DNA from: Halarchaeum grantii
GTDB lineage: Archaea; Halobacteriota; Halobacteria; Halobacteriales; Halobacteriaceae
Direction: 5' to 3'
Assembly: GCF_014647455.2 (NCBI RefSeq)
Contig: NZ_BMPF01000001.1
Coordinates: forward strand, 744,001 to 808,000
DNA: 64,000 bases
Position numbers and translations under genes: made by a program. Under the pieces are notes generated by a model. That model did no database searches. It was not told where the DNA came from and saw only the letters and a list, made by a program, of their open reading frames with translations. Positions 4,989 to 55,773 of this stretch are shown here, in pieces; within the stretch, counting starts at the first letter, position 1; each line of letters starts with the position of its first letter.

Positions 4989-5010
4989 CCGTCTCGTGAT
5001 GACGAGACGG
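4989..5010. repeat. perfect inverted repeat in the cupin-guaA gap
   Basis: Arms of 9 bp (4989-4997 ccgtctcgt and 5002-5010 acgagacgg) with loop gatg. It lies 60 bp past the guaA(b) stop, on the transcript side, so it could end that operon. On that strand it is followed by A rather than T, so it is not a classical terminator. The rest of the 225-bp gap (4846-5070) shows no gene. Confidence 0.35.
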
Positions 5011-24861: not shown

Positions 24862-24868
24862 GGTATCG

Positions 24869-24910
24869 CCGCAGACGTGCCTCGCGCTACGTCGCGAGGC
24901 ACGTCTGCGG
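24869..24910. promoter_or_regulatory. 18-bp perfect inverted repeat in the potassium locus
   Basis: Arms 24869-24886 (ccgcagacgtgcctcgcg) and 24893-24910 are exact complements; spacer ctacgt. It sits just upstream of the minus-strand TATA, where an archaeal activator would bind. Its inner part resembles the second repeat at 24953-24978. Confidence 0.6.
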
Positions 24911-24952
24911 CCAGCGGTCGCGGTGATGTCGCGGTAGTGTGGTGACGGTGAC

Positions 24953-54417: not shown

Positions 54418-54831
54418 ACCGAGGGCAGTCACCGGCGCCAAGTAAAACGTTCCGGCTCTGCCGCTGGTTTCCGTACCGGAGTACGCCCCCTCTCGAGTGA
54501 CTTCGCCGGGGTAGCGTATTCCGTCCCGACGTGACCGAATGGTCCCGAGCCGACGACTCCACGCGCGAACGGAACGGCCCCCGACGACGAGGGGCGACGG
54601 ACACGACGAGAGCGTTCGCGGACCGAGCGGTTCGAAGAACCCGGTAGGTCCGCGATTCACTCGCGGCGAAGCCGCGAGGTCCGAAGACCCTCGTAGGAGG
54701 TCTGACAGACGTTTTGCGTGCGAGACGGCGAAGCCGTCTCGCTGCATAGGAAGAAGCGTCGCTTCTTCCGATGGTCGAGCTTTTGCCAGCGCAGAGCGCG
54801 CGAAGCGCGCTCAAGCGCGGCAAACGGTCGT
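54418..54831. other. 414-bp intergenic region with promoter and hairpin array
   Basis: The only gap over 300 bp. From the left: TATA candidate of the small membrane gene (54443-54449), about 170 bp of plain sequence, then a run of short perfect hairpins from 54629 to 54812. Frames through it are Arg/Ser-rich on both strands and I accept none as a gene. Confidence 0.6.
54629..54812. repeat. tandem array of five GAA/GTC-loop hairpins
   Basis: Five perfect stem-loops within 184 bp: 54629-54641 (5-bp stem, loop gaa), 54660-54678 (8 bp, gaa), 54720-54742 (10 bp, gaa), 54749-54769 (9 bp, loop gtc) and 54794-54812 (8 bp, gaa). The loops read C-GAA-G, an exceptionally stable mini-hairpin form in DNA. 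The array lies 3' of the KaiC-like gene. Confidence 0.65.
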
Positions 54832-55773
54832 CTAGAAGATGTTCGCCTGCCGGTAGACCGAAATCCCGCTGTTCGTGATCTCGTAGGGCTTGGTCTCGCG
54901 GGAGTGGTTGGCGTCGCGTATCTTCTGTATCTCGACGGCGAGGCGGGTCTCGCGGAAGTCCTCGGGGCGGACGTAGCGGAGGACGACGACGCCGTCGGTG
55001 AGGTACTCGATGATGCCGTGGCGGGAGGCGAAGGCGTTCTCGTCGGAGGCTTCGCTGGTGAGGAGAGTGGTGACGCCGGCGCGCTTGAGGGCCTTGGTGA
55101 AGTCGTAGATCTCGGTGCGCCGGGTGGCTTGGTCGTCGTACATCATCTCGAGGAGGGAGACGGAGTCGAGGACGAGGCGGTCGGCGCCGAACTCCTCGAT
55201 GAGGTGGGGGAGTTCGCTGCGGATGCTGGAGAGGGAGTTCGCCATCTCGATGGGGTCGAGGTCGATGACGGCGAGCTGGTCGTTCTGGACGTACTCCTCG
55301 AACGGCCAGCCCTTCTCGGCGGCGCTCTGGATGATGCGGTCGTAGGACTCCTCGAGGGTGATGAAGACGCCCTTCTCGCCGTTCTGGACGGCCTGTTCGA
55401 GGAACTGGAGGCCAAACGTGGTCTTCCCGGTCCCGGCGCCGCCGATGGTGACGAGGAGGCTCCGCTCGGGGATGCCGCCCTGCACCATGTTGTCGAGGCC
55501 TTCGACGCCGAATTCGATGCGGGGGATGTCGGACTCGAACTCCTCCTCGAACTCGTCGCCGCCGCCACCGCCGCCGAAGCCGAACTCGGAGGGGTCGGGG
55601 TCGCCGCCGGCGTCGAAGCCGAAGTCGTCGCCGCCACCGCCACCGCCGCCGAAGCCGAAGTCGTCACCGCCGGAGTCGTCGGGCTCGTCGCCGCTGAACG
55701 CGTCCGCGAACGCGTCCTCGCCGTCGGGTTCGTCCTCGTCGTCGGGCCAGTCGTCGTCCCCGTTACCGGACAC
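54832..55773 (-). CDS. KaiC-like RecA-fold ATPase with Gly/Asp-rich N-terminus
   Basis: 313 residues with GTG start. Residues 1-82 are low complexity: an acidic run, then Phe-Gly-Phe repeats with poly-Gly (DDFGFGGGGGGG at 37-48, DDFGFDAGGD at 49-58, SEFGFGGGGGG at 62-72). One KaiC/RAD55 domain follows, with Walker A GGAGTGKTT (111-119), a catalytic Glu pair in TLEES and Walker B-type DRLVLDSVSLLEMM. Single-domain haloarchaeal KaiC homologues (cir genes in Haloferax) respond to light-dark cycles; a signalling ATPase is likely, clock function unproven. The flexible N-terminus could drive assembly. Confidence 0.8.
   Translation of the reverse strand: MSGNGDDDWPDDEDEPDGEDAFADAFSGDEPDDSGGDDFGFGGGGGGGDDFGFDAGGDPDPSEFGFGGGGGGDEFEEEFESDIPRIEFGVEGLDNMVQGGIPERSLLVTIGGAGTGKTTFGLQFLEQAVQNGEKGVFITLEESYDRIIQSAAEKGWPFEEYVQNDQLAVIDLDPIEMANSLSSIRSELPHLIEEFGADRLVLDSVSLLEMMYDDQATRRTEIYDFTKALKRAGVTTLLTSEASDENAFASRHGIIEYLTDGVVVLRYVRPEDFRETRLAVEIQKIRDANHSRETKPYEITNSGISVYRQANIF

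Follow-up and report, generated by a model that had tools for sequence, protein, structure and literature searches.

What is the array of small perfect hairpins that lies behind a KaiC-like ATPase gene of Halarchaeum grantii? The gene (PF06745; positions 54832 to 55773, minus strand) is found in the 64,000-nucleotide stretch of DNA analysed here (the window), and its TAG stop codon (54832-54834) abuts the array. The initial annotation, made from the sequence alone, placed five perfect stem-loops at 54629-54812, and all five were present. Hairpins 1 (54629-54641, 5-bp stem), 2 (54660-54678, 8-bp stem), 3 (54720-54742, 10-bp stem) and 5 (54794-54812, 8-bp stem) carry a GAA loop closed by C-G, and hairpin 4 (54749-54769, 9-bp stem) a GTC loop. 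Dinucleotide shuffling of the 64-kb window (10 rounds) yielded only 0-1 GAA/TTC-triloop hairpins with a stem of at least 7 bp per shuffle. A scan of 856 kb of the same genome for three or more perfect hairpins (stem of at least 8 bp, loop of 3-5 nt) inside 250 bp gave only 4 places, of which three are copies of the family described below and one is the tail of a tRNA-Gly gene. The shuffles and the 856-kb scan rule out chance hairpins arising from base composition.

GAA is the most frequent triloop in the 856 kb (17 seen, 3.5 expected), and the loop had been taken to be kept along with the structure. This view was abandoned, since loops vary and invert between copies: the stem GCGAGACG..CGTCTCGC, which encloses GAA in the window, encloses TTC at C1:892.6 kb, so that the loop is incidental. 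Similarly, the stem core reported as shared with a hairpin at 4989-5010 is a real match, but a coincidental one, and this site was rejected as a second family copy because no covariance-model match is listed there. Three proposals were borne out: the array is a 3′-end feature of the KaiC-like gene, it is no simple repeat of one sequence, and structure is kept rather than sequence.

The five hairpins form part of a larger unit, 54611-54831 on the minus strand (model match 54612-54831; RNA fold z-score -8.55), which starts at the KaiC-like stop codon. The array is its closing stem region P1, an optional unit and hairpins D and E viewed from the opposite strand; the closing stem itself, the outer stem of E and the weaker middle hairpins had been missed. 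In the KaiC sense, the unit opens with the 5′ arm of P1 (ACGACCGTTTGCCGCGC, 54815-54831), which includes a T-tract (TTT in this copy, TTTT in most copies) and pairs with the 3′ arm (GCGCTGGCAAAAGCTCG, 54776-54792) around hairpin 5, the P1 apical hairpin. An optional two-hairpin unit (54717-54772, with the hairpins at 54749-54769 and 54720-54742) lies between P1 and the AAAA linker, which together with the variable middle hairpin C occupies 54679-54716. Hairpin D (CTCGCGGC-TTC-GCCGCGAG, 54660-54678; hairpin 2 above) and a conserved unpaired TGAA (54656-54659) follow. The terminal hairpin E (TCGCGGACC / GGTCCGCGA, 54616-54655) has an outer stem (54616-54624 with 54647-54655), a conserved internal loop (TACCG / GCTC) and an inner stem (GGTTC-TTC-GAACC), and the element ends with ACGCT (54611-54615).

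The cassette, as we call this unit, has a core of ∼150 bp in the order P1, C, D and E, and whole cassettes measure roughly 150-230 bp. The P1 consensus is CGA-c-CTTTTGC / GCAAAAG-c-TCG, closing an apical hairpin, and the sense reading runs from ACGACC-TTTTGC at the stop codon through the AAAAGC linker, C, D, the unpaired (T)GAA and E to GGACGCT. Additional two-hairpin units, placed between P1 and the linker, are found in the window copy and at two other places in the same genome (L052, and twice at L039); at the KaiC-like site, one congener (G001) has the unit and another (G003) lacks it. Palindromes, P1 and E, lie near both cassette ends, and no long ORF is attributed to the cassette. Three loci (L067, L074 and L226) have ∼30 further nt behind E in common (TTGCACCATGGATTGTTCAGCACAGCCACT), so that the stretch that moves or is converted may extend beyond the core.

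When 54540-54830 was used as a blastn query against the genome itself, 11 places were obtained, whose alignment revealed the modular unit and from which a first covariance model (R1) was built. The single array implied by the initial annotation is one member of a multi-copy family: R1 gave 24 matches in this genome, some overlapping or partial, and matches in 29 of 40 relatives, with up to 40 per genome. With a second model (R2, E ≤ 1e-6) the family was detected in 151 of 242 sampled haloarchaeal genomes and in 54 of 74 genera; the R2 survey scored at most 12 candidates per genome, and its copy numbers are lower bounds. Named hosts of the family include Halarchaeum, Halolamina, Halegenticoccus, Halorubrum, Haloprofundus, Haloplanus and Halobellus. 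A partial copy (L122:6645-6713) was found on a contig filed as an Actinomycetota MAG, which is probably a mis-binned haloarchaeal contig. A plasmid or phage element was rejected, as one copy had no blastn match in PLSDB or INPHARED, and so was a known RNA, as no Rfam family matched at the curated threshold. The initial annotation knew of no described haloarchaeal element of this form, and none was found in open-licence papers; the family is apparently undescribed, and an account in a subscription journal may have been missed.

The position of the cassette was surveyed with 119 copies in 12 genomes, 86 of which have a clear same-strand gene. The cassette is oriented relative to that gene (sense orientation), and in 73 of the 86 it starts between -4 and +12 nt from the stop codon, mostly within 3 nt. 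In 67 of 74 copies a T4 run lies within the first 25 nt; for comparison, 10 of 540 other genes, crudely predicted in the H. grantii genome, have T4 within 12 nt of the stop. Behind the T4, the sense strand carries two A4 tracts, i.e., two T4 tracts on the antisense strand. Between convergent genes, facing pairs of cassettes were observed, one copy per gene. The hosts are mostly housekeeping genes (TBP, TFS, aRF1, the PolD small subunit, RfcL, RadA, SRP54, thermosome, FtsZ, aCPSF1, CDC48, DnaJ, ArgRS, ValRS, methionine adenosyltransferase, IlvE, HisG and SdhA), whose functions are mixed, and a common regulon is not supported. Over half of the haloarchaeal genomes sampled contain this family, which follows genes such as TBP, aRF1, RadA, SRP54, FtsZ and that of the termination factor aCPSF1, and which is absent from Rfam.

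TGA is under-represented among host stop codons (8 of 67, against 220 of 447 in a background drawn from the H. grantii genome only; p = 2e-9), although there may be other reasons why highly expressed genes avoid TGA. An internal triplet pairs with the bases beside the stop codon and changes together with them, and in four copies the TGA itself is inside the helix (TGAA/TTCA). A readthrough signal is unlikely, because each of the three stops occurs and the distance of the cassette from the stop ranges from -3 to +3. At the KaiC-like gene the cassette lies flush behind the stop in at least 7 genomes of several genera and is absent in others with an unchanged C-terminus; hence the cassette does not truncate the gene or supply its stop. 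Among the copies that do not follow a protein gene, several lie behind a likely conserved, unannotated ncRNA (TTAGTCCCCGCCCGAG..GCGATGA..GAACCCGGG..CACGAGGGTTTCCC..GGGATGAGGCCGGCCGTTAGTGTTCCGGGCGTACA). This probable ncRNA had no Rfam match; it ends just before the cassette, and its last 20 nt recur behind it. It was seen at L274 (upstream of 1651, minus strand), L273 (upstream of 1501), L137 (upstream of 4990), L241 and L111.

To learn on which nucleic acid the pairing is kept, we analyzed its covariation. In an alignment of 106 distinct copies fitted to the covariance model, 95.2% of cells were paired, against 34-48% in slid controls, and double changes occurred in 31 of 33 pairs. Double-change cells numbered 590, against 177 in shuffles, and none of 500 shuffles reached the observed covariation. 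A MAFFT alignment of 11 copies, made independently of the model, showed compensatory changes in 13 of 33 pairs. The cassette thus has the compensatory helix changes looked for in a structured RNA. RNA helices tolerate G.U pairs, not A.C. In a MAFFT alignment separate from the model-fitted one both amounted to 1.0%, whereas the SRP RNA of 30 of the same genomes gave 11.7% G.U and 1.1% A.C, and tRNA stems, a small sample, gave 5 G.U and 0 A.C. The preference for G.U over A.C that marks the functional strand of an RNA was not seen, and the antisense consensus was as good as that of the sense strand. In the model-fitted alignment 140 G.U and 37 A.C were counted among 3291 cells; most of these G.U come from two columns of a conserved TG/CT internal loop, which in an RNA could represent a genuine tandem wobble, and when these columns were excluded 39 G.U and 35 A.C were left. 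Dropping these two columns was our own choice and is the weakest step of the test: equality on the model-fitted alignment requires it, whereas the separate MAFFT alignment gives equality directly.

Since G.U is about as frequent as A.C, unlike in SRP RNA, we conclude that the palindromes are maintained at the DNA level or on both strands. Strong covariation, usually taken as proof of an RNA, can therefore arise from maintenance of DNA. The initial annotation had offered a 3′ mRNA element, a structured RNA or a protein-binding DNA array; the 3′ location fits the first, and the strand-symmetric pairing argues against an ordinary structured RNA and would fit a DNA-structure element better. The C.C and TG/CT mismatches and the internal loop of E are conserved amid otherwise perfect stems, with the mismatches and unpaired motifs kept at ∼90% or more; this pattern is suggestive of recognition more than of a simple propensity for palindromes.

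Orthologous copies share 77% identity in the first 150 nt and random copies 74%, against 88% for the final 240 nt of host genes; at TBP in two species of the Halarchaeum group, the gene end is 98% identical and the cassette 78%. At orthologous sites single stems have been swapped wholesale and the linkers retained. Position and folded shape are kept, with a sequence that changes quickly and is near-random in its divergence at conserved positions. Sites at which position is kept and sequence lost represent an unusual evolutionary mode. Cassettes have been retained across several genera behind the KaiC-like and aRF1 genes. A 183-bp copy shared by G009 and Halorubrum is 97.8% identical between them and has different flanks in the two, so that copies may be able to move. 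No transposase, integrase or target duplication could be tied to the cassette, and no mobilising enzyme was identified: the IS605-type ends of the genome differ, and the integron integrase score is below cut-off.

For a dispersed, oriented family at stop codons, with a T4-5 tract and strand-symmetric Watson-Crick covariation amid conserved mismatches, our preferred reading, with a probability of about 0.4, is a non-coding DNA cassette, built of hairpins, that occupies the 3′ border of transcription units and is at once a mobile or converting element and a 3′-end module of the transcript. From these features we infer termination, protein recognition and movement as follows. The hairpins would act as folded DNA (single-stranded or cruciform) recognised by a protein, or would be re-made by recombination or template switching, and cassettes or single hairpin modules would be swapped between copies. 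They would settle behind stop codons since insertion at that point leaves the gene intact, and the T-tract would end the transcript, substituting for the displaced terminator. The undecayed helices of old orthologous copies speak against this reading, as a merely selfish insertion does not explain them. It is rather doubtful that this is a new kind of element, a DNA-hairpin cassette homing to stop codons as an exchangeable transcript 3′ end, its sequence continually rewritten and its position and shape inherited; such a cassette might choose its site by pairing the internal triplet with bases of the stop-codon region. The 3′ ends of archaeal transcripts are poorly understood, and the family offers a concrete, testable handle on termination.

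Two other readings are serious rivals of the mobile cassette. A structured mRNA 3′ element, co-transcribed and folding behind the stop, would set or protect the mRNA 3′ end (by termination or as an exonuclease block) or tune translation. Sense orientation, the stop-codon position, the copies behind a likely ncRNA, the one copy per gene in convergent pairs and the very stable predicted fold all agree with it. Moreover, in a Haloferax reporter a hairpin terminated 59% of transcripts (PMC7237163), and 3′ UTRs matter for translation in haloarchaea (PMC2636863). We consider it somewhat unlikely, given that G.U is no commoner than A.C, unlike in SRP RNA and tRNA, and that the T-tract precedes the structure, so that a transcript ended there would exclude it. 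The alternative that the cassette is a two-way transcription boundary, where sense transcripts stop at the T-tract and antisense or convergent ones at the hairpins followed by two T4 tracts, would account for the strand symmetry, because hairpins would be needed on both strands, as well as for the A4 tracts behind the sense T4 and for the facing pairs. A single copy should then suffice for two convergent genes, but often each of them carries one, and conserved mismatches, mobility and sequence turnover are left unexplained; we regard this boundary as unlikely. That the cassettes have no function, being gene-end quasi-palindromes repeatedly perfected by template switching in replication, is compatible with the perfect Watson-Crick arms, the inverted loops, the wholesale replacement of single stems at orthologous sites and the lack of a G.U preference. 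The ∼90% or higher conservation of mismatches and unpaired motifs within perfect stems, the exact stop-codon position and the retention over genera at KaiC and aRF1 make it quite improbable.

Among known systems, the closest described kind is that of the PATEs (palindrome-associated transposable elements) and SMRs of Haloquadratum (Dyall-Smith et al. 2011; PMC3119063). Like them, the cassette is short, non-coding and haloarchaeal, with divergent copies, palindromes near both ends and no terminal inverted repeats seen, and is too short to encode a transposase. PATEs have ends in common with IS605-type transposons and have not been described at stop codons, whereas cassettes sit there as a rule and their ends differ from those of the tnpA-tnpB element at C9:44.2-46.1 kb. 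That element (L170, L062) is an apparently complete IS605-type element of the H. grantii genome (G000), with end hairpins CTCCGTCTTCAGGCGGAGGTCAAG; the genome also has about ten TnpB genes or remnants. IS605/TnpB ends or an omegaRNA were rejected, since an unfiltered model search over the TnpB and TnpA loci gave a single diverged cassette copy beside a TnpB remnant and nothing else.

Bacterial REP/BIME sequences carry a GTAG or CGTC tag and are mobilised by a RAYT enzyme, and we know of no flush placement of them at stop codons. They are extragenic palindromes, often at gene 3′ ends as the cassettes are, with proposed roles in termination and mRNA stability and with GTAG/CGTC families (PMC3733652). 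Unlike the cassettes (150-230 bp), they measure 20-40 bp, and cassette stems differ from copy to copy. Integron attC sites lie directly behind a stop codon, keep their shape with a variable sequence, have conserved unpaired bases and are read as folded DNA. The cassette resembles them in its position, conserved shape and unpaired bases, but no cassette array is apparent and its hosts are chromosomal housekeeping genes. An attC site was rejected because the best TIGR02249 score in the genome was 30.4 bits against a cut-off of 265, and no R′/R″ core boxes (RYYYAAC/GTTRRRY) were visible by eye in the cassette consensus. Archaeal intrinsic terminators, as mapped by Haloferax Term-seq (PMC7237163), have in common with the cassette a T4-5 tract behind the gene, seen in the 67 copies counted above, but the T-tract of the cassette is one stem arm, ahead of ∼150 bp of conserved structure.

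Other hairpins were also noted. The longest perfect stem in the window, 19 bp with a 6-nt loop, belongs to a hairpin outside the family (GCCGCAGACGTGCCTCGCG, 24868-24911). Behind a tRNA-Gly gene (L040:7000-7220; C1:907.0-907.2 kb), several small perfect hairpins occur together with repeats of the tRNA end CACCGGTGC.
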